A program made the position numbers and the translations under genes. A DNA stretch of 42,155 nucleotides. It comes from Thermoplasmata archaeon. Lineage in GTDB: Archaea; Thermoplasmatota; Thermoplasmata; Lutacidiplasmatales; UBA184. Location of the stretch: contig JAKAVQ010000017.1 in the NCBI GenBank assembly GCA_021817245.1, positions 1 to 42,155 of the forward strand, given 5' to 3'. Under the pieces are notes generated by a model, which saw only the letters and a list, made by a program, of their open reading frames with translations, was not told the origin of the DNA and searched no databases. This document shows, in pieces, positions 22,949-39,148 of this stretch; position 1 is the first letter of the stretch, and each line of letters starts with the position of its first letter.

Positions 22949-22950
22949 GA
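22941..22950 (+). promoter_or_regulatory. TATA-like box of the heptose operon
   Basis: ATCGATAAGA at the very end of the helicase gene, centred about 32 bp before ATG 22977. This suggests an almost leaderless mRNA for hddA-gmhA-CBS/ParB. Confidence 0.55.
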
Positions 22951-22976
22951 GGGGTCGCGAGGGCTTTCGGGTCCGG

Positions 22977-24547: not shown

Positions 24548-25359
24548 CCGTCCGCGTCCGGGACTACATGGTGCTCGAGGTCGAGCACCTGCGGGAGACG
24601 GCCACGATCCGCGAGGCGATCGAACGGCTCACGCGGAGCCGGCACCACGGTCTTCCGGTCACCGACCCGCGGGGCCATCTCGTCGGTTTCGTGAGCGCGA
24701 AGGAGCTTCTCCGCCACTCGGCGGAGGGCACGACGGCGCTCGCGAAGATCATCCGGCCGGGGACGTACACCGCGTATCCCGATACGGCGCTCGACGATGC
24801 GGCGCGCATTATGTTCCGCTTCGGATTGCGGGACCTGCCCATCATCGACCCGGACGGTCGGCTCTCGGGAATCCTCTCGAACCTCGACATCGTCCGCTCC
24901 CACTTCGAGCGCGCGTCGCCCGCGAAGGCCGACACGCTGAAGCGACTGCTCGCCGACCGCTACAGTCTCCCGTTCTCGTTCCACCGCGGCCTCGTGCCGA
25001 TCGACCGCCTCACCCCGACCCAGTGGAAGGTCTTCGAGGACGAGCTCGAGGGCCGCCGCTACGAGCTCGAGCGGGGGTTCGCCGAGCCGGTGCTGGTCCT
25101 CCACAAGGGCGACTCCTGGATCCTGGTCGACGGTCACCACCGGGCGCTCGCCGCGCGCGAAATGGGGCTCGCGCAGCTCCAGGCGTTCGTGCTCACCTGC
25201 GATCGGCCCGAGCAGTTCGCGACGGTCGAGACCGGCTTCGAACGGATCGCGAAGCAGCACCATCTCGGCTCGGTCGGGGACATCGAGATCGACCGGTCGA
25301 GCCACCACCCGTTGATCGAGGTCACGACCCAGCTGATCCGCCGGTTCGAGGGCGGTTAG
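24544..25359 (+). CDS. Two CBS domains fused to a ParB/SerK-like domain
   Basis: 271 residues. Residues 1-122 form a CBS pair (GLPVTDPRGHLVGFVSAKEL; LPIIDPDGRLSGILSNLDIV), a module that usually binds adenine nucleotides. Residues about 145-215 form a ParB/sulfiredoxin-fold domain: VPIDRLTPTQWKVFEDEL then WILVDGHHRALAAREMG, with DGHHR at 196-200. The ParB fold includes DNA-binding nucleases and CTPases, but also the free serine kinase SerK of Thermococcus, whose VDGHHR motif this resembles. So either a small-molecule kinase or a regulator is possible. It is the third gene of the heptose operon (ATGA overlap with gmhA), which makes a metabolic role more attractive than chromosome partition. Confidence 0.82.
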   Translation: MTVRVRDYMVLEVEHLRETATIREAIERLTRSRHHGLPVTDPRGHLVGFVSAKELLRHSAEGTTALAKIIRPGTYTAYPDTALDDAARIMFRFGLRDLPIIDPDGRLSGILSNLDIVRSHFERASPAKADTLKRLLADRYSLPFSFHRGLVPIDRLTPTQWKVFEDELEGRRYELERGFAEPVLVLHKGDSWILVDGHHRALAAREMGLAQLQAFVLTCDRPEQFATVETGFERIAKQHHLGSVGDIEIDRSSHHPLIEVTTQLIRRFEGG

Positions 25360-25437: not shown

Positions 25438-26388
25438 ATGGACCTGCCCCTGCCCCCCATCGCGTTCAACGGGACGCTGCTCCCGCTCGCGGTCGTCGCG
25501 ATCGCGATGATCGGCGTCACGATCTTCCTCCTCGGCAAGGTCCTGCCCGTGGACGGCCGACCCCCGCTCGTCTCTCAGGTGGTCCTCGCGCTCGCGGTGC
25601 TCGGAGGGGGAAGCCTGCTCCTCCTCTCGCTGCTCCTCGTCTTCGTGAACCCGAACGGCTACGACGCCTGGACGTGGGTCCTGATGTCGTTCAACTTCAT
25701 GATGATGGCTCCGATCGGGATCTGGTTCATCGGGGTCATCGCCTTTCGGGACCGGAGGATCCGGACCCAGGTGTGGACCTGGCCGGTGACGATCGCGATC
25801 GTCACGACCGGTTCGGAGGGTCTGATGGGCTTCCTCTTCGCGCAGGGAACCGCCTCGTCCCCGCTCACCTTGCTGGCCGTGGGGGCTCAGGGTCTCGCGT
25901 CCGTCTGGTTCTTCTGGTCGATGGCTGGCGTCATGACGGCGCTCATCCTCTGGGCGCCGGTCTCGAAGGTCGAACGGCGGGCCCTCCTCGCACTCATGGT
26001 CTCCGCGGTCGTCGGACCGTGGGTCACCGCCTACCCCACGATCGGCGGTGCGGCGATGGGCGGCGTGATGGCACTCTTCTTCGCGCTCCTTCTCCGCCCG
26101 CTCGTTCGCGGCGAGGTCGCCCGGGAGGAGGTGGGACTCCTCTTCGGGCTGGCGGGTGCCTTCCTTGCGACGGCCCTCGCCGGATTCACGGTGGCCGCAG
26201 GGAACGGATCGCCCGTCACCGACCTCGTCTTCGGGATCACGATGGCCGTGGTCATGGCGGTCGAGATCGCCTACCTGTTCCGCCGCTTCTACCACGGTGC
26301 GCCGTTCGCGCCGTGGGTCCCGCGGACGCGATCGAAGGGCCGAAAGGAGTGGTCGGCCGGGACGACCGCGCTTCCGATGGACCGGTAG
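25438..26388 (+). CDS. Polytopic membrane protein of unknown function
   Basis: 316 residues with about eight or nine hydrophobic helices, beginning near residue 12 (LLPLAVVAIAMIGVTIFLLG). Met-rich stretches occur in helix 3 (SFNFMMMAPIGIWFIGVIAF) and in MGGVMALFFALLL. There are no His pairs typical of heme proteins and no known transporter motif that I can name. The C-terminus is a basic cytosolic tail. It lies at the edge of the respiratory island, just before a membrane-anchored cupredoxin and with its own promoter. The Met content may hint at copper, but that is weak. Confidence 0.78.
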   Translation: MDLPLPPIAFNGTLLPLAVVAIAMIGVTIFLLGKVLPVDGRPPLVSQVVLALAVLGGGSLLLLSLLLVFVNPNGYDAWTWVLMSFNFMMMAPIGIWFIGVIAFRDRRIRTQVWTWPVTIAIVTTGSEGLMGFLFAQGTASSPLTLLAVGAQGLASVWFFWSMAGVMTALILWAPVSKVERRALLALMVSAVVGPWVTAYPTIGGAAMGGVMALFFALLLRPLVRGEVAREEVGLLFGLAGAFLATALAGFTVAAGNGSPVTDLVFGITMAVVMAVEIAYLFRRFYHGAPFAPWVPRTRSKGRKEWSAGTTALPMDR

Positions 26389-26453
26389 TCCGCCGCGTCC
26401 GGCCCGGGGCCGGTTCGGACAGCCCCACCGGCGACCGGGCGTGATTCGTACAC

Positions 26454-26466
26454 TACGCATATCAAC
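26454..26466 (+). promoter_or_regulatory. TATA-like box before the two-domain cupredoxin
   Basis: TACGCATATCAAC, about 40 bp before GTG 26500. The intervening leader contains AGGGGCGATC. Confidence 0.5.
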
Positions 26467-26499
26467 GGCCCCCAGGTCTCCGCGCCGTCAGGGGCGATC

Positions 26500-27540
26500 G
26501 TGACCGAAGTGCCCGGGTTCCGTCGGTACCGGCCCCTCCGCCGGGCGCTGCCGTTCCTCGTCGCCGCGCTGCTCGTCGCCACCATCGGCCTCCCTTCGGT
26601 CGCCGCCCTCGGCCCGATACCGGTCGCGCCGTTCGTGGGCCACGCGCGACCTCTCGCGGGTCCGGTCGCGCTCTCGGTCAACCTGACCGACCGGCCGGGG
26701 TACTCCCCGCAGTTCCTGAGCCTCCCGGCCGGCTCGAACGTCTCGATCCACCTCGACAACGTGGGCAACTACACGCACACGTTCACCCTCGTGTCGAAGC
26801 CGGACATCTCGCTCTCCCCGACCCTCGATCCCGCCGGGGTGTACGCCTTCTTCCGGACCAACGGCTCGCTCGCGAACGTCTCGCTCGCCCCCGGGGCCGA
26901 GGGGTGGGCGAACCTCTCGTTCAACGCCTCGCTCGGATTGAGCTCGTTCGAATTCGTTTCCGTGGTCCCGTACCAGTTCCAGGCCGGGATGTACGGCTAC
27001 CTCAACCTCACGTCAGTGGGCCCGGGCCTCCTATTGTCGGACAACACGACGAACTCCCTATCGTTCGTGCCGAACGTACTCGCCGCGGCGCCGACGCATT
27101 ACCCGGTCAATGTCGACGTGCTCGTGACGAACCTCGGGGGCAGCTTCCCGCATACGTTCACCCTCGCGCCGCAAACGAACGTGTCGCTTTCGCCCGCGAA
27201 CTTCACGCAGTACTTCGCGCAGCATCCCCCCCTGGTCCGCGCTTCCGTACCGATCGGGGCCGGCTCATCGGTCTGGGCGAACTTTACGGTCGCCGCGCCC
27301 GGGGTCTACGAGTACATCTGCGAAGTGCCGGGGCACTTTGCGAGCGGGATGTTCGGCTTCCTCTACGTCGGCGTCACGCCCACCCCTCCGCCGCCGCCGC
27401 CGAGCACCGCGGTCGTCGAGTCCTGGGTACTGGCGGGATCGCTCGGCCTCCTCGGTATTGGGGTCGTGCTCGCGGTCGTGGCCTCCTTCTCGGGAAGGTT
27501 CCCCCGCGCCCCGGGGTCTCACGGCGGTCAATCGCACTGA
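26500..27540 (+). CDS. Membrane-anchored two-domain cupredoxin; only domain 2 has full copper ligands
   Basis: 346 residues. N-terminal signal/anchor (about 15-37), two cupredoxin domains, a Pro-rich spacer (PTPPPPPPS) and a C-terminal membrane helix (about 308-330). Domain 2 has the type 1 copper set His218 (HTFTL), Cys274 (YICEVPGHF), His279 and Met284. Domain 1 keeps His93 and Met164 but has Ser154 and Gln159 where the Cys and the second His should be, so it is probably copper-free. Many Asn-x-Ser/Thr sequons are present, as in secreted archaeal glycoproteins. It is the likely carrier between the Rieske/cytochrome b complex and the CuA oxidase, since no cytochrome c is encoded here. Confidence 0.88.
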   Translation: MTEVPGFRRYRPLRRALPFLVAALLVATIGLPSVAALGPIPVAPFVGHARPLAGPVALSVNLTDRPGYSPQFLSLPAGSNVSIHLDNVGNYTHTFTLVSKPDISLSPTLDPAGVYAFFRTNGSLANVSLAPGAEGWANLSFNASLGLSSFEFVSVVPYQFQAGMYGYLNLTSVGPGLLLSDNTTNSLSFVPNVLAAAPTHYPVNVDVLVTNLGGSFPHTFTLAPQTNVSLSPANFTQYFAQHPPLVRASVPIGAGSSVWANFTVAAPGVYEYICEVPGHFASGMFGFLYVGVTPTPPPPPPSTAVVESWVLAGSLGLLGIGVVLAVVASFSGRFPRAPGSHGGQSH

Positions 27541-27790
27541 GCGGCGGACGAAGGACCCCGCCGACCGATGGTCACGGGGTCCCACCGCGCACGGTCGGGC
27601 GCGGAGCGGGTCCCTTCGACACCACCCCGGTCGCCCGGCTTCGGGCGCGGTCGGTCGGATCCGTAGGGACGATCCTCGCTCGGAAAGGGGGCGGGCCGCC
27701 GTGAGCGGTGAGCGACGCTCCGGCCGACGATCCTCCCGAGACTACCGGCTCGAGATCGAACTCCGCGCAGAACCCCCGCGCGCGTCTCGA

Positions 27791-28252
27791 TCAGGTCAGA
27801 ACCAGGAACGAGCGCATCGTGCCGTGGAAGGTGCCGCAGAACTCCGTGCACTGGATGAGGTACTGCGTGCCCGGCGCCGCGCTCGGGACGGTGAAGGCGA
27901 AGTGGTTCGTGCGCCCGGGGATTGCGTCGATGCGGACGCCGAGCTGAGGGATGTTGAAGGAATGGATCACATCGGCCCCGGTGACGTTGATCTGCACGAC
28001 CGCTCCCGGGGTCGCCCATAATGCCCCGCCGCTGACGGAGTTGGTCGTCGGGTCGTAGCTCGAGTTGAAGCACGTGTCGTTGGCCGGGTAGCAGAACTCC
28101 CAGTACCACTGGTGCCCGATCACCTCGACGTACTCGCTCGGGTTGGAGGGCAGGCTGTCGAGATGGTAGAGGAGCACGGTCGAGTAGGCGGCGACGCCCG
28201 CGAGCAGCGCAACGACGATGAGGGTCCAGGCGACCTCGAGTTTGTTAACCAT
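27791..28252 (-). CDS. coxB: Cytochrome c oxidase subunit II, C-terminal part (TM2 plus CuA domain)
   Basis: 153 residues from ATG 28252. One membrane helix (about 7-30, NKLEVAWTLIVVALLAGVAA), the second helix of ordinary subunit II, precedes a complete CuA domain: His97 (VIHSFNIP), Cys135, Glu137, Cys139, His143 and Met146 (CTEFCGTFHGTM). The aromatic patch GHQWYWEFCYP for electron entry is also present. The first helix is on a separate upstream gene whose end overlaps this start by 8 nt (ATGGTTAA). CuA would take electrons from a cupredoxin. There are no genes in the 250 bp between its end and the end of the convergent cupredoxin gene (27541-27790), and I see nothing else there. Confidence 0.94.
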   Translation of the reverse strand: MVNKLEVAWTLIVVALLAGVAAYSTVLLYHLDSLPSNPSEYVEVIGHQWYWEFCYPANDTCFNSSYDPTTNSVSGGALWATPGAVVQINVTGADVIHSFNIPQLGVRIDAIPGRTNHFAFTVPSAAPGTQYLIQCTEFCGTFHGTMRSFLVLT

Positions 28253-28469
28253 ATCGTCGTCCCTTCACTTTCGGGTCGCGGAACTTCCAGACCGCGTAGA
28301 CGAGGAAGGCGAACGTCACGATCGCCCCGGCCGCGGAGATCGCGATCAGGACCCACACGAGACTGTTCGTCTGCTGGAGGTTCGTCTGGCCCGTCGCGGG
28401 GAGCGCGCCGAGGCCGAGCGTTAGGGCGGCCAGCGCGCCGCCGCTTCGGTACCGACCGGGGGGGACCAC
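28245..28469 (-). CDS. Cytochrome c oxidase subunit II, N-terminal part (signal plus TM1), split gene
   Basis: 74 residues from GTG 28469. A signal-like hydrophobic start (ALAALTLGLGALPATG) is followed by one membrane helix (VWVLIAISAAGAIVTFAFLV) and the motif VYAVWKFRDPKVKGRR, which is the normal end of helix 1 and start of the loop in subunit II. The stop lies inside the start of the CuA part. Removing one G in TATGGTT would fuse both frames to a standard subunit II (KGRRYVNKLEVAWT), so either the gene is truly split and translationally coupled, or one base is wrong. Two other junctions in this island have the same 8-nt overlap, which favours a real split. Confidence 0.8.
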   Translation of the reverse strand: MVPPGRYRSGGALAALTLGLGALPATGQTNLQQTNSLVWVLIAISAAGAIVTFAFLVYAVWKFRDPKVKGRRYG

Positions 28470-28492
28470 GTCCCGAAGGGGGAACCCCGCCT

Positions 28493-28502
28493 ACATATTG
28501 CC
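28493..28502 (-). promoter_or_regulatory. TATA box of the split subunit II genes
   Basis: Minus-strand GGCAATATGT, about 28 bp before GTG 28469, in the divergent gap to the second cupredoxin. Spacing fits a leaderless mRNA. Confidence 0.6.
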
Positions 28503-28615
28503 GGCGTACGAACCGCACCGGTAGGGGCCTGGGCTCCGGACCGGCGGCCGTACGTACGCAGGGGCTTTGAACCGCACGTCCCGTCCCGCCCTCAACCGAA
28601 CCGGAGTGAAGCATC

Positions 28616-29329
28616 GTGTCCCGTACCCGCCTCTCGCACAGCCTCTCGATCGCGGTCGTGGCGCTCCTGCTCCTCGGCCTGGTCCTGACCGTCGGCACCG
28701 GGCGCGCGAGCACCGTGTCGGGCGTCGTCACCGACACCTCGAGCTCGTTTTCGGTGACCGCGGCCTCCGGCTTCAAGTTCGTCAGCGCCGAGTACCAGGG
28801 TCTCCCGACCGCCGCGACGGTCAACGTCACGTTCACCGACGCGGACACTCTGGCCCACACGTTCTCGATCCTCGACCGACAGGGAGTGGTCATCCCTACG
28901 TCGACCACCACCGCGCAGCTCGAGGGCCTCTTTGCGCAGTACGGGGCGCTCGTCAGTTTCAACGTCACCGGCGCCGGCGACCAGGCGACGCACAGCTTCG
29001 CGTCGCCGGCCGCGAAGGGCTGGTACGAGTTCGTGTGCCTCGAGCCGGGCCACTTCCAGGAAGGAATGTACGGCTTCATCGCCTTCGGTATGAACCTCCC
29101 GGCGAACCTGACCATCTCGGCCCCCTCGACCGGGCCGGGCGCCGGAGTCTTCATCATCAGCGGCACCATCGTCGCGCTGGTCGTGATCGCTCTCGTCCTC
29201 GGATTCGTCGTCGGCCAGCGTCGGGGCGCACAGCACGAGATGCCCCCCGAACGCCTCGGTTATCCCGAGCCGATCGGTACCCCCGAGCCTCTCCCGCCTC
29301 CCGCGTCCGGGGCGCCGCCCCCGCACTGA
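28616..29329 (+). CDS. Membrane-anchored cupredoxin (blue copper protein)
   Basis: 237 residues from GTG 28616. A signal peptide (about 8-31) is followed by one cupredoxin domain with a complete type 1 copper site: His81 (AHTFSI), Cys141, His146 and Met151 (FVCLEPGHFQEGMYG). A membrane helix (about 176-199, FIISGTIVALVVIALVLGFV) anchors it, and the Pro-rich tail faces the cytosol. It is divergent from the subunit II genes, a position that fits an electron donor to CuA, possibly alternating with the two-domain cupredoxin upstream. Confidence 0.9.
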   Translation: MSRTRLSHSLSIAVVALLLLGLVLTVGTGRASTVSGVVTDTSSSFSVTAASGFKFVSAEYQGLPTAATVNVTFTDADTLAHTFSILDRQGVVIPTSTTTAQLEGLFAQYGALVSFNVTGAGDQATHSFASPAAKGWYEFVCLEPGHFQEGMYGFIAFGMNLPANLTISAPSTGPGAGVFIISGTIVALVVIALVLGFVVGQRRGAQHEMPPERLGYPEPIGTPEPLPPPASGAPPPH

Positions 29330-29382
29330 CGGGCCCGAGCGCCCGGAGTTTCCGGGCCCCATAGGCTCAAATGGGGGAGTCC

Positions 29383-29391
29383 GCATAAGCT
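29383..29391 (+). promoter_or_regulatory. TATA box of the AbrB-PhoU gene
   Basis: GCATAAGCT, about 36 bp before ATG 29423. Confidence 0.6.
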
Positions 29392-29422
29392 ACGGACCTC
29401 GTAGTAGGTTGGGAACAGTGCA

Positions 29423-30466
29423 ATGGCGTGGGGAACCCCGAACCGAGAGCGACGCGTCCTGAAGGCCGGACACTCTTCCATCGCCGTGACGCTGCCGAAG
29501 CCGTGGGCCGAGGCGATGAACCTCCGGCCCGGTGACCTGATCGTGTTCGACCAGAACGATGACGGCACGCTTTATCTGAAGCCCGCGCCGCTCCCCGGGG
29601 CGAGCCCGGCGGCGTCGCCGTATCTCGTACAGGCGCGGGCGTTCGAGTCGCCCGGAGTCCTCGAGCGGCTCATCGTCGGTGCGTACCGGGTCGGCCACGA
29701 TGCGATCGAGGTTCGGACCGACGTCCCGCTCGCGCCCGAGCGCGTCGAGGAGGTCCTGCAGGCGGCTCGGGGACTCCTCGGGGTCAGCGTCGTCGCCCAG
29801 GAATCGAACCGGATGGTCCTGCAGAACTTCATCGATCCGTCGAAGTACGAGCTGCCCCAGCTCGTCCAGCGCATGAAGATGATCCTCGTGGCTTTCCTCG
29901 AAGAGATGGAGGAGGTGCTCCGGCGCCGCGCGCATCGGGGGCGGCCCACGACGCTCGAGGAAGAGGCCAACAAGGTGCTCGCGTTGCTCGTGCGCCAGCT
30001 CTTCCTCGCGAGCCGGGACTGGTCGCTCGCCCGTCGGATCGGGAGCCCCGACCCGCGCCAGCTCCTCGAGTGGCGCGTGGTCGTCCACGCTCTCGACGAG
30101 CTCGCGGAGCTGTTCGGCGAGGCGCTTGCGAGCCTCCACGACGAGCTCCCCCTGCTCGGCGCTCCGGCCCGCGAGGCGCTCTCGGCCCAGCTCCCCGAGC
30201 TCAAGGCCGAGCTGAAGTCAGTCGTCGAGACCCTCATGCACCCCTCGCTCGATCGCGCGTGCGAGGTCTACCACCAGAGCGTCCGCCTCGGGGAGACCTG
30301 GCCCATGCCGGGGCGCGCCGGCCGCCGATCGAAGTCGTCCGGCCCGAGCGCGTCCGTCTCCCGCCTTCTCCAGCGGGGCACCGGCCACATCGCGCACCTG
30401 GCCGAGGTCGCGATCGACCGGGCGGTCGCCGCCGGTACCGAGACGATCCTGGTCGAGGCGGCGTAG
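29423..30466 (+). CDS. AbrB-PhoU phosphate-type regulator
   Basis: 347 residues. An N-terminal SpoVT/AbrB DNA-binding domain (about 8-52: RRVLKAGHSSIAVTLPKPWA, MNLRPGDLIVF) is fused to PhoU-like helical repeats (about 130-340: QRMKMILVAFLEEMEEVLRR, VVHALDELAELFG, RGTGHIAHLAEVAIDRAV). Such archaeal fusions are regarded as regulators of phosphate uptake, but no pst transporter is present here. It sits between the second cupredoxin and the tat genes, so it might instead sense something for the respiratory island. The C-terminal part near 290-305 has a basic insert (GRAGRRSKSSG). Confidence 0.9.
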   Translation: MAWGTPNRERRVLKAGHSSIAVTLPKPWAEAMNLRPGDLIVFDQNDDGTLYLKPAPLPGASPAASPYLVQARAFESPGVLERLIVGAYRVGHDAIEVRTDVPLAPERVEEVLQAARGLLGVSVVAQESNRMVLQNFIDPSKYELPQLVQRMKMILVAFLEEMEEVLRRRAHRGRPTTLEEEANKVLALLVRQLFLASRDWSLARRIGSPDPRQLLEWRVVVHALDELAELFGEALASLHDELPLLGAPAREALSAQLPELKAELKSVVETLMHPSLDRACEVYHQSVRLGETWPMPGRAGRRSKSSGPSASVSRLLQRGTGHIAHLAEVAIDRAVAAGTETILVEAA

Positions 30467-30525
30467 GGCCCTTTATCCGCCCGGGGTTGGGACAGACCGT
30501 ACGCGTCCGGTCCTCTTGTACGAAC

Positions 30526-30534
30526 GCCATATCG
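30526..30534 (+). promoter_or_regulatory. TATA-like box before tatA
   Basis: GCCATATCG, about 37 bp before GTG 30567. It may drive the tat-Rieske-cytochrome b-oxidase run. Confidence 0.45.
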
Positions 30535-30566
30535 TTCAAGGTCGGGTGGACCCGCGGGGGTAGACG

Positions 30567-30773
30567 GTGTTCGACTCCATCGATGACTGGCTGATCATCG
30601 CCGTGGTGGCCGGGATCCTGTTCTACGGGTCCAGCAAGATTCCCCAGCTGGCCCGCAGTCTGGGACGATCGGTGGGGGAGTTCAAGAAGGGACGGCTCGA
30701 GGTCGAGCGGGAGATGAAGGCCGAGGCGGCCAGCCCGCCCGCCGCGCCCGGACCGTCCGGTCCGGCCCACTAG
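30567..30773 (+). CDS. tatA: TatA, Sec-independent translocase pore component
   Basis: 68 residues from GTG 30567. A short N-terminal membrane helix (IDDWLIIAVVAGILFYG) is followed by the hinge and amphipathic helix of the family (SSKIPQLARSLGRSVGEFKK), then a Pro/Ala tail. TatA oligomers form the pore for folded proteins with twin-arginine signals. It is separated by 104 bp from tatC. A second TatA/B-like gene lies after tatC, and a Rieske protein, a classic Tat substrate, is encoded shortly downstream. Confidence 0.92.
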   Translation: MFDSIDDWLIIAVVAGILFYGSSKIPQLARSLGRSVGEFKKGRLEVEREMKAEAASPPAAPGPSGPAH

Positions 30774-30877
30774 CGCCGACCGTTCCCGATCGGCATGTCC
30801 GAGACCCTATTCCTACGCGGCCCTGCGAGGTACCCGAGCCGGGGGGCGGCTCCGGGACGGAGGTGCCCGGGTGACTG

Positions 30878-31711
30878 ATGGGCGACCTCGACCGGATCCT
30901 TTCGGTCCTGGGGGAGGTCCGACACCGGCTGGTCCGCCTCGCCCTCGTCCTCGGGCCGCTCTTCGGCTCGATGCTCTTCTTCGAGCTGAGACCGATCTCG
31001 CTCCCGTTCTTCGGGACGACGCTGCCGTTCGCAATCCCCTGGCCGAGCCCGTTCTACAACGTCACCGCCCAGGTGTTCCGCGCGATGGAGCGCTGGATGC
31101 TCCCCTCCGGGGTGACGCTGCTCAACGTCGGGGTCGGCGATTCGATCGTCGTCCAGATGGAGGTCGCTCTGCTCCTGACGGCGATGGTCGGCATGCCCTG
31201 GGTCGTGCACGAGGTCGGAACCTTCCTCGTCCCGGCGCTCCGCCGGAACGAGCGAGTCCTCTTGCGCCAGGTCGGGATCCCGGCGACCGCGCTCTTCGTA
31301 CTCGGGACCGCGATCGGCCTGTTCTTCCTCACGCCGTTCACGTTCCGGCTGCTCTTCCGGTACGTCGCCGCGATGGGGCTCGCGCCGGTGCTCGGGGTCC
31401 AGGCGTTCGTGACCTTCGCGCTCGTCTATTCGCTCGCCTTCGGGGTCGTCTTCGAGCTTCCGGTCTTCATCTACGCGCTTACCCGGCTGGGGGTCGTCCG
31501 AGCGGAGGCCTGGCGCCGGCACTGGCGCGGAGCGGTGCTCGGCTCGCTCGTCTTCGGGATGATCGTCACGCCGGACAACTCCGGGATCACCATGCTGTTG
31601 ATCGCGCTGCCGATGGTGGCGCTGTACTTCGGGGGCACCTACTTCGCGGGCCGGTGGGAGCGGCGGGCGGATCGGACCTCGAGGCCCCGGGCGGCGCTCG
31701 GCGCCGGGTGA
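30878..31711 (+). CDS. tatC: TatC, Sec-independent translocase receptor
   Basis: 277 residues with six membrane helices. The N-terminus ILSVLGEVRHRLVRLALVL is the conserved cytosolic start that in bacteria reads HLxELRxR. Other family segments are MPWVVHEVGTFLVPALRRNE, FVLGTAIGLFFLTPFTFRLL and the conserved DNSGITMLLIALPMVALYFG near the C-terminus, where other TatC have PD-x-x-S/T. GGAGGTG lies 12 bp before the ATG. It recognises twin-arginine signals and works with the flanking TatA and TatA/B-like proteins. Confidence 0.95.
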   Translation: MGDLDRILSVLGEVRHRLVRLALVLGPLFGSMLFFELRPISLPFFGTTLPFAIPWPSPFYNVTAQVFRAMERWMLPSGVTLLNVGVGDSIVVQMEVALLLTAMVGMPWVVHEVGTFLVPALRRNERVLLRQVGIPATALFVLGTAIGLFFLTPFTFRLLFRYVAAMGLAPVLGVQAFVTFALVYSLAFGVVFELPVFIYALTRLGVVRAEAWRRHWRGAVLGSLVFGMIVTPDNSGITMLLIALPMVALYFGGTYFAGRWERRADRTSRPRAALGAG

Positions 31712-31723
31712 GGTGAAAGGGCC

Positions 31724-32125
31724 ATGGCGCTGTTCTCGGACGTCGACTGGATCATCCTCCTCGCGGCCGCCGCGTTCCTCTTGTTCGGCCGGGACAGTGG
31801 CGAGACGCTGCGCACGTTCGGCCGTTGGTACGGCCGGGCCGGTCGGTTGAAGCAGGAGCTCCTCGCGGAGTTCACCAAGGCGGCGGATCTTCCGAGCCCA
31901 CCCCCGGGCGCTCCGCTCACCGTCCGCGGGGCTCTTCTCGGTCTGGAGCCCGTGCCGACCCGCACGAGCGGTATCCCGGCGGTAGTTCGCACTCCGCCCG
32001 CGATCCGCCCGCCCACGATCTCGCCGCCCCCTGCGCCCGAGGGCGCGTGGGCCGGCGGGGCCCCGGTGCCCACGTGGACGATGACGACTCCGATCGTACC
32101 CGCCGACCTCGAGAGGTCCCGATGA
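31724..32125 (+). CDS. TatA/TatB-like protein with long Pro-rich tail
   Basis: 133 residues. A membrane helix (VDWIILLAAAAFLLF) with the Phe-Gly hinge (LLFGRDSG) and an amphipathic helix (ETLRTFGRWYGRAGRLKQEL) match the TatA/B family. The following 80 residues are low-complexity Pro/Thr/Ala. The longer tail and position after TatC suggest a TatB-like role, but archaea usually lack a distinct TatB, so it could be a second TatA. It starts 12 bp after tatC, and its stop overlaps the next small gene by ATGA. Confidence 0.82.
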   Translation: MALFSDVDWIILLAAAAFLLFGRDSGETLRTFGRWYGRAGRLKQELLAEFTKAADLPSPPPGAPLTVRGALLGLEPVPTRTSGIPAVVRTPPAIRPPTISPPPAPEGAWAGGAPVPTWTMTTPIVPADLERSR

Positions 32126-32307
32126 GCGCGCTGTCGGTCGACCAGATCGTCTCCCTCACGGAGGTCCTCGTGATCCTGATGGGGATCGGGATCATCTGGG
32201 CCGTCTACTACGGAAGCGACCGCGCGGAGCTGCCCGGCGACGCCCAGATCCCCGAGCCGGACGAGGTGGACGACTCGGTGCCGGACACCCGGGGGAGGAC
32301 CCTATGA
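32122..32307 (+). CDS. 61-residue single-pass membrane protein, unknown
   Basis: One membrane helix (about 9-28: IVSLTEVLVILMGIGIIWAV) is followed by YYGSDR and an acidic, Pro-rich tail (EPDEVDDSVPD). I know no family. Both ends are ATGA overlaps, with the TatA/B-like gene before and with the Rieske gene after, so it is translated in step with them. It may be a small subunit of the Rieske/cytochrome b complex or an accessory factor of Rieske export. Confidence 0.78.
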   Translation: MSALSVDQIVSLTEVLVILMGIGIIWAVYYGSDRAELPGDAQIPEPDEVDDSVPDTRGRTL

Positions 32308-33143
32308 GTTTCTCCCACGGACCGGGGTGCGATCTGGCCTGTCAGTTTGCCCAGGGACAATCGCTGCCGCTCGACTTCCCCGTCGGACAGGTCCGTCGGG
32401 TCGCTCCCGCCCGGGGCGACGACGGGGACGTCGACGAGACCAAGCGCAACGTGCTGAAGCTGCTCGCCGTCGCCGGCCTCGTGGGGGCCGGCGCCGGGGG
32501 GCTCGCCGGTGGGGTGATCCAGTACGTCCAACCCCCTACGATCGGGATCTCGAGCTATCCTCGCGTGCAGCTGATCGACATCGACGGGAGCCCGCTGACG
32601 GTCGCCAAGGTCGAATCGGAATACAACGCCGGGACCCCCAACGACCTGATCTTCAACTACCCGCTCCGCAACGAGCCGAACTTCCTGCTCAATCTCTTCC
32701 CGGCCAGCGGGACGCCCGATGGGACGAACGGCGCAGAGAACGTCCCCGGCGGCGTCGGGACCCACAAGTCGATCGTCGCGTACAGCGCGATCTGCCAGCA
32801 CCTCGGCTGCCCGGCGCCCGCGATCTCCTACTACCCACCGGGAACCTGTCCGAAGACGTTCTCGAACAACACCTATCCGACGCTCTCGTTCTACATCCAC
32901 TGCTCCTGCCACGGTTCCACCTACGACGTCACGAACTCGGCCTCGAACCTCACCGGGCCCGCGGTCCTGCCGCTGCCGCAGGTGACGCTCGATGTCGACG
33001 CGAGCGGGAACATCTATGCCATCGGCGAGCAGGGCCCGCCGGTGAACGGCCATCTCAACACCCTGCAGGGCGACTACGGGGTCGGCTCGACGTCCCAGCT
33101 CGTGAAGGAGACCCCCGTCATCCTCTGCTCGTTCCCGACGTGA
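32304..33143 (+). CDS. Rieske 2Fe-2S protein of a quinol-oxidising complex
   Basis: 279 residues. The 2Fe-2S motifs are CQHLGC (164-169) and CSCHGS (200-205), with the extra Cys pair that forms a stabilising disulfide in quinol-oxidising Rieske proteins. The two motifs are 30 residues apart, longer than in mitochondrial bc1, because of an insert with PPGTCPKTFSNNTYP. The membrane anchor (about 51-75) is preceded by TKRNVLKLLAVAG, a Tat-like signal with Lys-Arg in place of Arg-Arg. The first 45 residues are a cytosolic extension. It transfers electrons from quinol to a mobile acceptor outside the cell membrane. ATGA overlap with the preceding gene; cytochrome b follows after 7 bp. Confidence 0.95.
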   Translation: MSFSHGPGCDLACQFAQGQSLPLDFPVGQVRRVAPARGDDGDVDETKRNVLKLLAVAGLVGAGAGGLAGGVIQYVQPPTIGISSYPRVQLIDIDGSPLTVAKVESEYNAGTPNDLIFNYPLRNEPNFLLNLFPASGTPDGTNGAENVPGGVGTHKSIVAYSAICQHLGCPAPAISYYPPGTCPKTFSNNTYPTLSFYIHCSCHGSTYDVTNSASNLTGPAVLPLPQVTLDVDASGNIYAIGEQGPPVNGHLNTLQGDYGVGSTSQLVKETPVILCSFPT

Positions 33144-33150
33144 GGCCACG

Positions 33151-34500
33151 ATGACGTTCGCGCGGTGGTACAATCGGTCCCTCAACAAGATCTGGGGGTT
33201 CGTCGAGGACCGGACCTCGATGAAGAAGTGGGCGCTCCGCCCCCAGCCGGACTTCACGTTCAAGCCGTCGTACTGGACCGGCGCCTTCGTCGTGAACGCC
33301 TTCCTCTATCAGGTCATCTCGGGCGCGCTCCTTCTCCTCTACTACCAGCCGAGCACCGCCCCGACCCTCACCGCGTGCGGACAGACGGCCGGAGCGTTCT
33401 CCGTCGCCCCCGCCGCGTGGTGCTCCACGTACTACATCATCAACTCGGTGCCGATGGGTTCGCTGCTGCTCTCGACCCACCTCTACGGCGCCTACGCGAT
33501 GATCTTCCTGATGTTCCTCCACTTTTTCCGGGGCTACTACGTCGGCGTCTACAAGGCGCCGCGCGAGTTCTCCTGGATGGTCGGCACCCTCCTTCTCCTC
33601 GCGACGCTCGGGATGGGGTTCACCGGATATCTCCTACCGTACACCCAGCTCTCGCTGAACGCGACGAACGTCGGCATCGTCCTCGCGCTCCGACTGCCGA
33701 CGGTCGGTCCGCTCATCGGGCCGTTCATTCTCGCCGACGGAACCTCCCAGGGGCTCCTCTCCCGGATGTTCGACGCGCACGTGCTGCTGATCCCCGTCGC
33801 GCTCGCCGCGCTCCTGTACGCCCACATCGCGCTGTTCGAGTCGCACGGGATCGCCCCGCCCGCGACGTCGGACCCGCTCCAGCGCCGGCGCTTCACCGAG
33901 AAGGAGGACAAGAAGCACGTCCCGTTCATGCCCCACATCTTCTTCTACATCACGAAGTGGGGCTTGCTCTACGTCGGGGTGCTCTTCGGGATCGCGGCCC
34001 TCTGGCCCTGGCAGCTCACGGCCTACGCGGGGAACGTCGCCGCCGCGGGGATCGTGACCGAGCCCGACTGGTACTTCCTCTGGCTGTTCAAGCTCGTCGA
34101 CTTCACCGGCGTGACGCCCGTGATCGCGGTCGCGGTCACCAACGTGCTCCTCGTCTACGTCCTCCTCCTGCCGTTCCTCGACCGGTCGAAGCGGACGCAT
34201 CCGCGCGACCGTCCGTTCTTCATCTGGATCGCGACGTCCCTCCTCGGGTTCTTCGTCCTGATGACCGTCTGGGGCGGAGAGACGCCCGGAGTCCAGATCG
34301 CCCCGATGCAGGTCGCGACGACGATCGGGCCGATCTTCCTCGTGAACGCGGTCGTGATCGGACTCTTCCACTGGAGGTACCGCCAGAGCTACCGGCGGCG
34401 GCTCGCCTCCCGGGCGGAGCCGTTCGCGGGGCCCTTCCCGAGCGGACGGCCCGCGCCGGCGGCCCCGGTCGGGACGACCGAGGTGGGCGCCCGTGAGTAG
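33151..34500 (+). CDS. Cytochrome b of a bc-type quinol oxidising complex
   Basis: 449 residues, full-length fusion of the b6-like and subunit IV-like halves. Four heme-ligating His: His110 and His124 (STHLYGAY..FLHFFRG) and His210 and His225 (DAHVLLIP..YAHIALFESHG). The second pair is 15 apart, as in cytochrome b6 rather than mitochondrial b. The quinol-site motif reads PDWYF (305-309) for the usual PEWYF. A loop after helix 1 (about 66-95) carries two Cys (76, 91) that could form an external disulfide. Its stop overlaps the next small gene by 8 nt (GTGAGTAG). No cytochrome c1 or f gene accompanies it. Confidence 0.95.
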   Translation: MTFARWYNRSLNKIWGFVEDRTSMKKWALRPQPDFTFKPSYWTGAFVVNAFLYQVISGALLLLYYQPSTAPTLTACGQTAGAFSVAPAAWCSTYYIINSVPMGSLLLSTHLYGAYAMIFLMFLHFFRGYYVGVYKAPREFSWMVGTLLLLATLGMGFTGYLLPYTQLSLNATNVGIVLALRLPTVGPLIGPFILADGTSQGLLSRMFDAHVLLIPVALAALLYAHIALFESHGIAPPATSDPLQRRRFTEKEDKKHVPFMPHIFFYITKWGLLYVGVLFGIAALWPWQLTAYAGNVAAAGIVTEPDWYFLWLFKLVDFTGVTPVIAVAVTNVLLVYVLLLPFLDRSKRTHPRDRPFFIWIATSLLGFFVLMTVWGGETPGVQIAPMQVATTIGPIFLVNAVVIGLFHWRYRQSYRRRLASRAEPFAGPFPSGRPAPAAPVGTTEVGARE

Positions 34501-34759
34501 CGGCGCGCCCGAGACCCCCCGCTGGAGCACGGGGACGCTCTGGGCGATCCTTGCGGTCTTCCTGGTCTTCGGGACGGTCGGCAGCGCCACGGTCGTCTAC
34601 GGGGTCCTCGGGCTGCTCTCGGGCAGCTTTCTCTACCTCGTCGCGGTCGGCATCGGTGGGATCGTCGCGTTCCTCTCCTTCCTGTTCATGGCCGGCATCC
34701 TCTACCGCGTGGACCGGTACCGCGGAGCGAACCAGCGGAGGCTCGAGTTCTTTGAGTGA
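34493..34759 (+). CDS. 88-residue membrane protein between cytochrome b and oxidase, unknown
   Basis: GTG start inside the cytochrome b stop (8-nt overlap). Two membrane helices (about 15-42 TLWAILAVFLVFGTVGSATV and 44-72 GSFLYLVAVGIGGIVAFLSF) and a basic end ([18 protein letters not shown]). I know no family. The strict coupling to cytochrome b and, on the other side, to a second small membrane gene suggests a structural subunit of the Rieske/cytochrome b complex, the oxidase, or a link between them. Confidence 0.8.
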   Translation: MSSGAPETPRWSTGTLWAILAVFLVFGTVGSATVVYGVLGLLSGSFLYLVAVGIGGIVAFLSFLFMAGILYRVDRYRGANQRRLEFFE

Positions 34760-35126
34760 GACGGCCCCCGACGAGCGCGACCTGACCCGCCTGCGCAACC
34801 GGGTCGCCGACCTCTACACCGCGGTCCAGGTCCTGATGCTGCTCGGGATCGCGGTGCTCATCGTCTACGCGATCCGTCTCGGACCGCTCACGAGCCCCGG
34901 CGCGGAGGAGTCGTTCGGACTCTCCGTCGCCCTGATCTTCCTGATGGGCGCCCTGGTCGTTCACCTGGTGGATCGGGTCTACCGGGTGTGGCCGTTCGGC
35001 CGCCGGTTCCGTCCGAAGGACCCGGGCCCGGTGACGGTCCGGGCCCAGGCCCGGTTCCTCAAGGTACTCGTGGTCGTCCTCGCGGCGGCCGCGATCGCGT
35101 ACATACTAGGGGGACTTATCGCGTGA
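34752..35126 (+). CDS. 124-residue membrane protein before oxidase subunit I, unknown
   Basis: TTG 34752 lies inside the previous stop (TTGAGTGA, 8-nt overlap); coding potential begins right there ([20 protein letters not shown]). Three hydrophobic helices are seen (about 22-40 [17 protein letters not shown], 53-72 [18 protein letters not shown] and 100-122 [17 protein letters not shown]), with a basic loop [12 protein letters not shown] between the second and third. I do not recognise it. It ends 16 bp before oxidase subunit I. The size and place would suit a small oxidase subunit, for instance in the role of subunit III or IV. Confidence 0.75.
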
Positions 35127-35142
35127 GCGCGAGGACGGGAAG

Positions 35143-36816
35143 ATGACCGACTTCTCGACCCCGGTGGCCGTCATCGGGATCATCGCCGCCGTGGCGGCAT
35201 TCTTCCTCTGGGCCCTGAGCTACCACGGCGAGTGGACGGTCCGGACGGTGAAGAAGTGGCTCTTCACGTCCGACCACCGGCTGATCGGTCTGATGTACAT
35301 CACGACCGGCATCGTGTTCTTCTTCATCGGCGGGATCTACGCGACCCTGATCCGCACCGACCTCGGGTTCATCCAGGGGCTCGGACTCGATCCCCAGACG
35401 ACCCTCGGAATCACGCCGGAGGTCTACTCCGTGCTGTTCACGATGCACGGGGTGCTGATGATCTTCATGTTCATCATGCCGACCCTGGCGGGGTTCGGCA
35501 ACCTCCTCATCCCGTCGATGATCGGGTCGCGGGAGATGGCCCTCCCGAGGATCAACGCGATCGCGTTCTGGCTGATCCCGCCCGCGGGCATCATCCTCAT
35601 CCTGTCGAACGCGAACGCCGGCTGGACCGGCTACGTCCCGCTCTCGGTCCAAGCTCCGGGGTACGGCATCGACCTCTGGATCCTAGGGCTCCACATCCTG
35701 ACCGTCTCCTCGATGCTCGGCGCCGTGAACTTCCTGGTCACGATCCTGAAGCACCGGGCGCCGGGCGTGCACTACTGGAACATGCCCCTCTTCGTCTGGT
35801 CGATCCTCATCAACTCGGTGCTCCTGATCTTCGCGCTCCCGTCGCTATCGATCGGACTCACGATGGTCCTCTCCGACCGGAACTTCGGGACCCATCTCCT
35901 CGCGTCGGCCAACGGGACGCCGCTCGGCGGCGCGCTCCTCTATCAGAACGTCTTCTGGTTCTTCGCGCACCCCGAGGTCTACATCATGGTGCTGCCGGCC
36001 TTCGGCATCATCTCGACGATCCTTCCGAAGCTCGCCCGCAAGGACATCTTCGGGTACGGCGCGATGGCCGTGGCGCTCGGCGCGTTCGCGGTGCTCTCCT
36101 TTGCGGTCTGGGAGCACCACATGTTCGTCACGGGGATCGGGACCAACATCCGCTTCGTCTTCATGCTGGCGACGATGGCGATCGCGGTCCCGTCGGCGGT
36201 CAAGACGTTCAACTGGATCGCCACCCTCTGGGGCGGCCGGATCTGGATGGCCGTCCCGATGTGGTTCTGCGTCGCGTTCATCACCGGCTTCGTCATCGGT
36301 GGTCTGTCGGGGGTCATGCTCGCCTCGATCCCGGTCGACTACCTCTACCACGGCACCTACTTCGTCGTGGCGCACTTCCACTACATCCTGCTCGGGGGCA
36401 CCCTGATGGCGATCTTCGCGGGCATCTACTTCTACTTCCCGATCCTGACCCGCCGCTGGTACAGCCAGCGCCTCGGTCAGGCGCACTTCCTGCTCACCTA
36501 CGTCGGCGTCAACCTCCTGCTCTTCCCGATGTATATCCTGGGAGCGGAAGGGATGCCCCGGCGCGTCTACACCTATCTCTGGACCGGGAATTTCCAGGCG
36601 CTCAACTTCCTCTCGACCCTCGGCGCCTTCATCCTCGGGATCGGCCAGCTCGTCTTCGCCTTCAACATGATCTACAGCTACGTCGCGGGCACCCCGGTGA
36701 CGGCGGACGATCCGTGGGGAGAGGAGCTCGCGGTGAAGATGACCGGGCCCGTCGCGCCGAGCCCGACGCGCCTGCCGACCCCGCTGCCGACCGCGAGCCC
36801 TCCCGAGGCGTCGTAG
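35143..36816 (+). CDS. coxA: Cytochrome c oxidase (heme-copper oxidase) subunit I, A1-like
   Basis: 557 residues. All metal ligands are present: His102 (TMHGV, low-spin heme), His276 with Glu278 and the cross-linked Tyr280 (AHPEVY), His325-His326 (CuB), His411 and His413 ([10 protein letters not shown]). HPEVY and Lys354 (PSAVKTF) point to an A1-type enzyme with K channel. The D-channel entry Asp is Glu131 here ([11 protein letters not shown]), with Asn120 and Asn138 kept. The residue before the His pair is Glu (WEHHMF) where Ala is usual. An extra N-terminal helix (about 8-27) precedes the family start at TSDHRLIG. It reduces O2 to water and pumps protons. Subunit II is encoded 7 kb upstream; no subunit III is seen. 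Confidence 0.97.
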
Positions 36817-36824
36817 GAGGTGCC

Positions 36825-37400
36825 GTGCGGGGTCACGACCTCTTCCGCTTCGCCGCGGTCATCGCCTGTCTCCTCTGCTACCTGACGATCATCCTCGGCG
36901 GGAACGTGATGGCGAGCGACAACGGGCTCGCCTGCCCGGACTGGCCGTCGTGTTTCGGGAACGGGAACTTCTTCCCGGCGCTCCAGGGCGGGGTCGCGCT
37001 CGAGTGGGGCCACCGACTCGGGGCGTTCTTCCTCTCCCTTTCCACGCTCGTCCTCGCCCTCCTCGGGGTGGCGTACGAACGCGGCCGTCGGGCGCTGATG
37101 CGCATGTCCCTCGCGGCCCTCGCGCTCGTCATCACCGAGGCCCTGCTTGGGGCGGTGGTGGTGGAGAGCCGTCTCGATACTCCCTTCATCCTGGTCCATC
37201 TCGGCATCGCGACCGCGCTCTTCGGCCTCTTATTGGTCACGGCGCTCCTCGCCAACCTGCGCGAGATGCCCCGCCGATGGATCGAGTGGGCGCGCCAGGC
37301 CGCCGACGAGTCCCCCCCCGGGGCACCGGCGGATTTGCCGGAGCCGTACACTCCGTTCGGCGGCGAAGCGCCCGTGGCCCGGCGGCCCCGGGAAGGCTAA
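36825..37400 (+). CDS. ctaA: Heme A synthase, short archaeal form
   Basis: 191 residues from GTG 36825 with a strong AGGAGG before it. Four membrane helices only, half the bacterial CtaA, as known from archaeal half-size enzymes such as that of Aeropyrum. The Cys pair Cys37/Cys43 (LACPDWPSCFG) lies in the first external loop. Heme-ligand His63 (EWGHRLGAF) and His125 (ILVHLGIA) are present. It oxidises the methyl group of heme O to the formyl group of heme A for subunit I just upstream (8 bp gap). A Pro-rich cytosolic tail follows the last helix. Confidence 0.92.
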   Translation: MRGHDLFRFAAVIACLLCYLTIILGGNVMASDNGLACPDWPSCFGNGNFFPALQGGVALEWGHRLGAFFLSLSTLVLALLGVAYERGRRALMRMSLAALALVITEALLGAVVVESRLDTPFILVHLGIATALFGLLLVTALLANLREMPRRWIEWARQAADESPPGAPADLPEPYTPFGGEAPVARRPREG

Positions 37401-37428
37401 GCTCCCCCGCGGCTCCCGAGTGGGCAGC

Positions 37429-38376
37429 ATGGCGGCATCGTCCGGGTCGGTCCCCCCCGCGGTTCCCGCTCCGGAGGGCGCGGCCGGAGATCGAAAGCTC
37501 AGGGACGCCTTTGCGCTCGTCAAGCCGGGGATCACGGCCTTGATCTGCCTCGTGGCCGTCGGCGGCTTCCTCCTCGCCGATCCCCGCTCGATCGACTTCG
37601 GACGGCTTGGACTCCTGGTCGGCACCGGGGCCCTCTCCTCCGCCGGCGCGGCGGCGCTCAACCACTACCTCGACCGGGACCTCGATGCCGAGATGCGGCG
37701 GACCCGGGGGCGCCCGCTTCCTTCCGGGCGCATCCGGCCGAGCGGCGCGGTCGCCGCGTTCGGCCTCGTCCTCCTCGGGTTCGGCGTGGGCGCCGCGAGC
37801 GTGCTCCTAAATCCTCTCACTGGGTTCTCGATATTTCTCGGTGGACTCACCTACGTCGTCGTCTACACGGCGTGGCTCAAGCGACGGTCCAGTTGGAACA
37901 TCGTCATCGGCGGTTTCGCCGGGAGCGCCCCGGCGCTCGCCGGCAGCGCCGCCGCGATCGGGAGCTGGACGCCCGGCGTCCTCGCGTTCGCGCTCCTCGT
38001 CTTCCTCTGGACCCCGCCGCACTTCTGGAGCCTCGCGCTCCTGTTGAAGGACGACTACGCCCGTGCGCAGCTCCCGATGCTGCCGCGCATGGACGATCTT
38101 GCGTTCTCGGGGAAGGTGGTGGTCCTTTCCGCGGCACTGCTCGTCCCGGCGACCGTGCTCCTCGGCTGGTCGGGCGCGGTGACCTGGCCCGTCCTGCTCG
38201 TGCTGGTCGTCCTCGGAGTCCTGTTCGTCGCCCTGACGGCCCCGCTCTGGCGTCACGTCACTCCTCGGACCGCCCGCAGGGGGTTCGTCTACTCCGGGCC
38301 GTACCTGCTGCTGGTGGTGCTCGCGATCGCCGCGAACGCGCCGCTCGTGCTTAGGGGCGTTCCGGCCGGGCTCTGA
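37429..38376 (+). CDS. ctaB: Heme O synthase (protoheme IX farnesyltransferase)
   Basis: 315 residues from ATG 37429. UbiA-type prenyltransferase with about nine membrane helices. The Asp-rich motif NHYLDRDLDAEMRRTRGRPL and the second one around FLWTPPHFWSLALLLKDDYA are intact; KPGITALICLVAVGGFLL is the usual start. It adds a farnesyl-type chain to heme B, giving heme O for CtaA. It closes the oxidase gene run, starting 28 bp after ctaA. Confidence 0.96.
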   Translation: MAASSGSVPPAVPAPEGAAGDRKLRDAFALVKPGITALICLVAVGGFLLADPRSIDFGRLGLLVGTGALSSAGAAALNHYLDRDLDAEMRRTRGRPLPSGRIRPSGAVAAFGLVLLGFGVGAASVLLNPLTGFSIFLGGLTYVVVYTAWLKRRSSWNIVIGGFAGSAPALAGSAAAIGSWTPGVLAFALLVFLWTPPHFWSLALLLKDDYARAQLPMLPRMDDLAFSGKVVVLSAALLVPATVLLGWSGAVTWPVLLVLVVLGVLFVALTAPLWRHVTPRTARRGFVYSGPYLLLVVLAIAANAPLVLRGVPAGL

Positions 38377-38437: not shown

Positions 38438-39148
38438 ATGCCGGGTTCCGAACGGGGGTCGCCCCCCGAATTCCAGCGCACCGCCGAATCGGTCCTGAAG
38501 CGACTGGGGTACTCGAGGGTACCGCCCGTCCGGCGCGAACGGACGGTCGAGCCGGCGTTCTGGGTCCAGGAGGCCGGCGTGCCCCGTCGCACCTTCCCGG
38601 TCTTCCTCTCGAGCGGCACCCCGGCGAACGCGACGGAAGGGGTCGAGCGCTGGGTCGCGGAGCTCGGTCGCGAGCGCGCGAGCCCTTCCCGGGCGATCTT
38701 CGTCGTCCCGACCGACGCGGCCGCCGACGAGGCCTGGGACCGGATCGTGCGCTCCCCGGGAACCCCGATCGACCACGAGGTCTCCGTCCTGGTCGTACCG
38801 CCGGCCGCTCGCGCCGAGTCGGCGGCGCACTTCCATCTCCGTCAGGCCGACCCCCGGGAGATCCTCCGGGTCGCGACCGGCATCGTGGTCGGGCTGTTCC
38901 GGCGGGCCCAGGCCTCCGAGGGGTCGAGCCAGGTCGATTTCGAGGAGATGCTCGCGCTGCTCAAGGGGCGCTTCGGGATCGACGTCCAGCGCTCGCTCCA
39001 CGTGACCTCCGACGAGGACGCGCTGTTTCTGCTCTACCAGCTCGCGATGCGCGACGCGTACGCACCGGGAGAGCCCGGGACGAGCCTCCACATGCTCGTA
39101 CTGAAGCCGACCGGACCGGCGGCCCGTCTGCCCTGGTTCGGCGCCTAG
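38438..39148 (+). CDS. Hypothetical soluble protein
   Basis: 236 residues, no membrane helix. The N-terminal part (about 12-60, EFQRTAESVLKRLGYSRVPP, then RTVEPAFWVQEAG and RTFPVFLSSG) followed by ERASPSRAIFVVPTDAAADE resembles nuclease-like or regulator folds only in general outline. The C-terminal half is helical (FEEMLALLKGRFGIDVQ, SDEDALFLLYQLAMRDAY) and ends in HMLVLKPTGPAARLPWFGA. I do not recognise the family. It has its own TATA box, and the small tail-anchored protein gene follows after 51 bp. Confidence 0.75.
   Translation: MPGSERGSPPEFQRTAESVLKRLGYSRVPPVRRERTVEPAFWVQEAGVPRRTFPVFLSSGTPANATEGVERWVAELGRERASPSRAIFVVPTDAAADEAWDRIVRSPGTPIDHEVSVLVVPPAARAESAAHFHLRQADPREILRVATGIVVGLFRRAQASEGSSQVDFEEMLALLKGRFGIDVQRSLHVTSDEDALFLLYQLAMRDAYAPGEPGTSLHMLVLKPTGPAARLPWFGA

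Follow-up and report, generated by a model that had tools for sequence, protein, structure and literature searches.

The stretch of DNA considered here, contig JAKAVQ010000017.1 of a Thermoplasmata archaeon (42,155 b, 70% G+C), is referred to below as the window and belongs to a genome of 2.31 Mb in 31 contigs that is 92.86% complete. Between positions 25438 and 38376 it carries an island of respiratory genes, which code for a Rieske protein, cytochrome b, the CuA subunit II and subunit I of a haem-copper oxidase, the haem synthesis proteins ctaA and ctaB, components of twin-arginine translocation (Tat) and two membrane-anchored cupredoxins. The genes and their metal ligands are present, their order is conserved among relatives, and the families searched for haem c, haem-c assembly and oxidase subunit III have no match in 106 genomes of the same order, Lutacidiplasmatales. 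The island very probably represents the quinol-to-oxygen branch of a respiratory chain that is free of cytochrome c and linked by copper proteins.

Relatives were collected with the window cytochrome b as query, and 80 loci were kept from 100 relatives among 123 pattern stretches. Their titles read "Thermoplasmata archaeon" (UBA184 included) except for L047, titled "bacterium", and L072, Candidatus Lutacidiplasma silvani. Gene-order counts include a locus only if it extends at least 1.5 kb beyond the distance needed, and a gene is in place when it lies on the correct strand and at most 3.5 kb from its expected position. The features of the island are the following.

25438..26388, + strand: mem7, a membrane protein without a family match, about nine predicted long helices, conserved Met, Glu and Trp (alignment A1, 23 rows)
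26500..27540, + strand: cup1, a two-domain cupredoxin with a C-terminal anchor (PF00127, 23.1 bits, cut-off 21.2; alignment A2, 35 rows)
27791..28252, - strand: coxB, CuA subunit II with one transmembrane helix by eye (PF00116, 4e-19)
28616..29329, + strand: cup2, an anchored, single-domain, sulfocyanin-like cupredoxin (PF06525/SoxE, 23.6 bits, cut-off 21)
29423..30466, + strand: AbrB-domain protein, a conserved neighbour (PF04014; in place in 48/52 loci)
30567..30773, + strand: tatA (PF02416, 2.4e-12; 54/55 loci)
30878..31711, + strand: tatC (PF00902, 9.2e-39; 59/60 loci)
31724..32125, + strand: second TatA/TatB-like protein (no Pfam match; 61/62 loci)
32304..33143, + strand: Rieske Fe-S protein with the Tat-type motif KRNVLK (PF00355, 25.4 bits)
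33151..34500, + strand: cytochrome b, N and C domains in a single protein (PF13631, PF00033, PF00032)
34493..34759, + strand: sm1, a small membrane protein whose gene overlaps the end of the cytochrome b gene (63/67 loci)
34752..35126, + strand: sm2, a small membrane protein (TTG start at 34752; 60/64 loci)
35143..36816, + strand: coxA, haem-copper oxidase subunit I (PF00115, 3.4e-144; 51/54 loci)
36825..37400, + strand: ctaA, a short (half-size) haem A synthase (PF02628, 66.6 bits; GTG start at 36825; 49/52 loci)
37429..38376, + strand: ctaB, haem O synthase (PF01040, 7.1e-48; ATG start at 37429; 44/45 loci)

Pfam models recognize COX1, COX2, COX15-CtaA, UbiA (ctaB), Rieske, the N and C domains of cytochrome b, TatA, TatC and the two copper proteins in the island. 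The NCBIfam matches of its proteins lie below the curated cut-offs, the AbrB domain excepted; the best are SoxL2 for the Rieske protein (136.9 bits, cut-off 582.1) and SoxC for cytochrome b (243.7 bits, cut-off 740). Ligands were counted in alignments that include the window sequence itself and exclude rows of 60% or less of the window protein length (380 residues or fewer for cytochrome b, 400 or fewer for CoxA). The assignment of conserved residues to haems, clusters and proton channels is presumed from family motifs. The Rieske residues C164, H166, C169, C200, C202 and H203 are conserved in 76/76 rows, as are H110, H124, H210, H225 and the PDWY motif of cytochrome b, and the CuA ligands of CoxB (H97, C135, C139, H143 and M146) are found in 51/51 rows. 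In CoxA, which has the only COX1 match of its genome, H102, H276, E278, Y280, H325, H326, K354, H411 and H413 are each present in 64 or 65 of the 65 rows. By its haem and CuB histidines, helix VI Glu, Tyr and K-channel Lys, at the positions of the family motifs, CoxA fits an A1-type haem-copper oxygen reductase. An earlier note on this DNA, made from the letters alone, had named the Rieske protein, cytochrome b, both oxidase subunits with their ligands, ctaA and ctaB, and Pfam and the conserved ligands bear it out. The gene content which it gave also stands, with two corrections: coxB lies on the minus strand at 27791-28252, and a second TatA/B-like gene occupies 31724-32125.

The gene order is kept throughout the relatives. 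The Rieske gene is in place in all 63 loci that reach far enough, and coxB, flanked by the two cupredoxin genes and read from the other strand, in 45 of 47. To the right of coxB, cup2 is present in 46 of the 50 loci with coxB. The arrangement around cup1 is more variable: among 20 stretches fetched around cup1, coxB lies beside it in 14, while in the other six (L221-L224, L226, L228) cup1 stands beside a block of CBS, SIS and GHMP kinase genes with no coxB match. In L. silvani, cup1 and coxB are about 11 kb apart on the same contig. The idea that cup1 is absent from part of the order was dropped in view of these six stretches, where cup1 sits with the CBS block away from coxB.

Cytochrome c was sought in the window, in its own genome and across the order. 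In the six frames of the window there is no CxxCH motif, and in its own genome neither PF00034 nor PF00510 has a match. The CxxCH pattern occurs 47 times in the DNA of this genome, fewer than the 90 matches of the reversed-pattern control. Of these, 46 were read by eye, without a signal-peptide program, and looked like Zn-ribbon or other cytosolic proteins or out-of-frame open reading frames, none resembling a small exported haem-c protein; the 47th, at a contig end, had been dropped as a repeat. Across the 106 genomes of the order, 39 of which reach 90% completeness or more and have no more than 5% contamination, the haem-c families PF00034 and PF13442 (other haem-c families, e.g., PF01322, were not part of the search), the haem-c assembly family PF01578 and the subunit III family PF00510 each gave 0/106; CoxA itself matches only COX1 in Pfam. 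Positive controls matched in 8/14 (PF00034), 7/14 (PF13442), 9/14 (PF01578) and 9/14 genomes (PF00510). For cytochrome c1 or f, the subunit expected of a bc1 or b6f complex, no candidate emerged from the window CxxCH search or from PF00034 and PF13442 (0/106), the c1 and f families themselves not being included. A cytochrome c hidden elsewhere was thus sought in the own genome and in the order and was not found. The earlier note had seen neither a cytochrome c or c1/f gene nor one for subunit III in the window, and this holds for the families searched in the genome and in the order. It had also held that such genes consistently linked to the island from elsewhere, or a neighbourhood lacking conservation, would speak against its proposal; no such genes were found, and the neighbourhood is conserved.

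The position of the tat genes directly before the Rieske gene fits a linkage between them because the Rieske protein carries the motif [KR]RNx[LI]K, before a hydrophobic stretch, in all 75 rows that reach this part. The first place is K in 61 rows and R in 14, R48, N49 and K52 are present in 75/75, and position 51 is Leu in 72 and Ile in 3. By this motif of twin-arginine type, in the K-R form in most rows, the Rieske protein would be classed as a Tat substrate. Tat export of the folded Rieske protein is probably the ordinary explanation of the neighbourhood, and the coordination of export with complex assembly that the earlier note proposed may accompany it. Passages of PMC10354927 mention Tat and Rieske, but apart. 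The window TatA, used as query, finds the second TatA/B-like protein at 36-38% identity in L059, L101 and L102. Further conserved Cys residues occur in the Rieske protein: C275 in 76/76 rows, C182 in 73/76 and, near the N-terminus, C13 in 62/76 and C9 in 59/76.

The two cupredoxins are of different construction. In cup2, the type 1 copper ligands H81, C141, H146 and M151 are present in 49/49 rows, a set cleaned by the removal of three fall-back matches to another cupredoxin. Against the curated sulfocyanin model TIGR03094 cup2 scores 27.8 bits, under the cut-off of 168.4, while the broader PF06525 is satisfied. The structural model of cup1 consists of two domains rich in beta structure, followed by a C-terminal helix, with a mean predicted local distance difference test score (pLDDT) of 86. 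Its conservation was followed in 46 distinct sequences, some of them close relatives, made up of A2 (35 rows) and 11 more. Domain 2 has a complete type 1 set, H218, C274, H279 and M284, in 46/46. In domain 1, H93 is retained, Ser154 stands for Cys and Gln159 for His, each in 46/46, and position 164 is Met in 40 and Leu or Phe in 6; the His residues that are invariant in A2 are 93, 218 and 279. Domain 1 is thus, on its sequence, a cupredoxin domain that has lost its type 1 site, a "dead" domain. The mean column identity of A2 is 45%, and Ser and Gln replacements that are fixed at this level of divergence point to selection that acts on domain 1 even in this state. It may have been kept for docking or spacing. 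Both anchored copper proteins of the earlier note were therefore found, but cup1 has two domains and only the second bears the full ligand set. Searched with the cup1 profile, the own genome gives four matches, and at least 73 of the 106 order genomes give one that spans from position 15 or earlier to position 335 or later. A limited text search of the literature returned no description of the dead domain, which may still be in print.

From these genes a route can be proposed in which the Rieske/cytochrome b complex would oxidize quinol and the Rieske centre would pass electrons to a membrane-anchored type 1 copper, most likely that of cup2 and possibly also that of cup1 domain 2. The type 1 copper would then reduce CuA of CoxB, and CoxA would reduce oxygen. 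The direction of the electrons and the cupredoxin used are deduced from gene content. Tat presumably exports the folded Rieske protein, whose motif is present in every row, and mem7 might, on weak grounds, be an assembly or copper-handling factor. The island would then be a one-locus example, from uncultured Thermoplasmata, of aerobic respiration in which copper carriers replace haem c.

Several observations weigh against this reading. The mem7 gene is in place in only 16 of 42 loci, and of the 40 loci that extend more than 3 kb upstream, only 30 have cup1 to the left of coxB. In 4 of the 50 loci with coxB, cup2 was not found to its right, though in L115, one of the four, that place is taken by another single-domain cupredoxin. 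Rieske and cytochrome b genes occur without coxA in 3 of 54 loci, and sm2 lies beside cytochrome b in L117 and L120, two loci without coxA, which speaks against a role for sm2 in the oxidase only. The metagenome-assembled genomes are incomplete, just 39 of the 106 reaching the limits of completeness and contamination given above.

An alternative to the cupredoxin relay is direct electron transfer between the Rieske and CuA domains in a tight assembly, the cupredoxins serving other donors. The close packing of the genes and the sm2-CoxA fusion described below would fit a tight assembly, and the four cup1-profile matches place cupredoxins outside the island too. The standing of cup2 beside coxB in 46/50 loci, with ligands intact in 49/49 rows, argues in the other direction, and direct exchange appears very unlikely. 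An enzymatic function of cup1, laccase- or nitrite-reductase-like, or a copper store rather than a carrier, is suggested by Foldseek, in which the 50 matches listed are all two-domain or small laccases with a best E-value of 2.1e-14. The template modelling scores (TM-scores) are only 0.21-0.29, however, and 6 of the 35 rows contain HxH, five of them solely at the extreme C-terminus, so that no conserved motifs for a trinuclear cluster are found; a multicopper oxidase was rejected on this ground. The two-domain laccases share the pair of cupredoxin domains with cup1, but cup1 is without conserved HxH motifs and has a membrane anchor, and an enzymatic or storage role is judged improbable.

It has also been considered that cup1 domain 1 still binds a metal through H93, S154, Q159 and M164, as a chaperone site. 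The invariance of the first three residues in 46/46, with Met at 164 in 40, agrees with this; the replacement of M164 by Leu or Phe in 6/46 does not. We know of no site with such a His/Ser/Gln/Met make-up, although no search was made for one, and this was counted against the proposal, which is regarded as unlikely. A more elaborate version of the copper-linked chain would make cup1 a new kind of carrier, in which the dead domain 1 clamps onto the oxidase or the Rieske complex as a docking part and the live domain 2 is held between Rieske and CuA, in an assembly with sm1 and sm2 as lineage-specific subunits and with mem7 in copper handling. This is put forward as a tentative and rather doubtful idea. 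If the dead cupredoxin domain does dock, a redox domain would have been turned to a structural use inside a respiratory chain.

The earlier note had put the small membrane proteins in a probable supercomplex; as parts of the complexes they find mixed support in the loci. Among the 68 loci with a coxA match, five sister loci (L115, L116, L119, L121 and L122) have sm2 and CoxA fused in one protein. The sm2-like part lies upstream in the CoxA frame and aligns with residues 6-80, 8-80 or 18-80 of a 126-residue query stretch starting at 34746, with 35-40% identity and E-values of 1e-13, 4e-13 and, in three cases, 2e-5. Since L119, L121 and L122 are near-identical, the fusion may amount to three independent observations. 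The sm1 gene adjoins cytochrome b in L118 and L120, both without coxA, and no sm1 match was obtained in L082, L115, L116 and L117. By fusion and neighbourhood, sm2 may be an oxidase subunit, and by neighbourhood sm1 may be a subunit of the cytochrome b complex, with counter-examples to both: those of sm2 in L117 and L120, and the four loci without an sm1 match. In a group that has no subunit III match, the fusion hints at a possible further subunit of the oxidase. In the same five loci (e.g., L115:11613-13871 and L119:11575-14001) a further N-terminal stretch of about 150-185 residues with a hydrophobic start precedes the sm2-like part and is possibly an extracytoplasmic domain. As a separate observation on CoxA, residue 131, which by the family motif would be the D-channel entrance position, is Glu, as in 60 of the 65 rows; the other 5 have Asp.

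The mem7 protein has no Pfam or NCBIfam match. Its model (pLDDT 77) gave no PDB fold match at E of 0.001 or less, which is a weak test, and its profile gave a single, chance-like match to PDB sequences (E 0.04). It matches 81 of the 106 order genomes, and in a phylum-wide draw 11 of 292 genomes, all from the window's own family. Three near-identical sister loci have the mem7 gene between ctaA and ctaB. Around other mem7 copies, 19 of 20 stretches hold no other island gene by tblastn; a neighbour of about 700-750 residues is found in nine of the 20 and a shorter form in one. The N-terminal part of this neighbour aligns with mem7 by profile (92.3%, E 5.5e-7, 140 columns, shallow alignments). In eight aligned rows the larger protein repeats an ExxMG motif twice, and its C-terminal 4Fe-4S part scores 24 bits for Fer4_7 (cut-off 27) and 21.8 for the NapH/MauN model (cut-off 213). 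It matches 51 of the 292 phylum genomes at E of 0.001 or less, some weakly, and its form of about 711 residues occurs in this order and, elsewhere in the class, in another family; a 714-residue representative had no match among PDB sequences. By this similarity mem7 resembles modules of a larger NapH-like polyferredoxin protein. That mem7 handles copper or transfers electrons is a guess, based on the CcoG cupric reductases and on its Met and Glu residues. Two other roles were tried for mem7. That of a hidden subunit III is unsupported, as mem7 has neither a Pfam match nor, in the weak test, a PDB fold match, and no COX3 was found in the order; that of a core subunit is weakened by its place in 16/42 loci and by the 19/20 other copies away from island genes. 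Examples of the membrane protein of about 711 residues, with two ExxMG motifs and a 4Fe-4S C-terminus, are L164:2554-4695 and relatives and, in the own genome, G000:C9:20734-22860. Another neighbour, c1, mostly of about 430 residues and having a hydrophobic stretch that contains a Cys-Cys pair, occurs at L164:1195-2496 and in 10 others of the 20 stretches, and no family matches it above cut-off.

The system as a whole is known. For Lutacidiplasmatales, the study of Sheridan et al. 2022 (PMC9287336) describes complex IV genes that adjoin those of complex III, haem A/O synthesis, Tat and a cupredoxin, with six further proteins of unknown function, five of them with transmembrane domains. It reports that the arrangement is kept within each order, apart from one exception among the Thermoplasmatales, finds cytochrome c absent from all its Thermoplasmatota genomes and proposes blue copper proteins as carriers. 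The island shares with that locus the order, complexes III and IV, Tat, haem A/O synthesis, cupredoxin, unknown membrane proteins and the lack of cytochrome c. Since the locus, its conservation, the absence of cytochrome c and the copper carriers are all in that text, the system must be regarded as already known, and the earlier suggestion of an undescribed system does not hold. The two-domain cupredoxin with its dead domain, the sm2-CoxA fusion and the mem7 family were not found in its passages on this locus and may be details beyond it.

The SoxM supercomplex of Sulfolobus acidocaldarius, as passages of PMC3750248 describe it, likewise combines Rieske, cytochrome b, a blue copper protein and a CuA oxidase without cytochrome c. 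The order of the island differs in having no COX3 match (0/106), while the Sulfolobus control matches. In SoxM, subunit III is fused to subunit I. In Candidatus Angelarchaeales, according to passages of PMC9038741, a small blue copper gene lies upstream of Rieske in 23/30 loci and a two-domain blue copper gene follows coxB in 19/29 genomes, and no cytochrome c is reported at the complex III loci. The same passages describe complex III and coxAB loci apart, and four two-domain clades with two type 1 sites, whereas in cup1 one of the two is dead.

The remainder of the AbrB-domain protein is presumably PhoU-like. On the 5′ side, at 22920-25359, GHMP kinase, SIS_2 and CBS-domain genes follow one another and adjoin cup1 in many relatives; as a guess, this row might belong to a heptose-type sugar pathway. 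On the 3′ side of ctaB, at 38438-39148, a conserved protein without a Pfam or NCBIfam match is in place in 42 of 45 loci.

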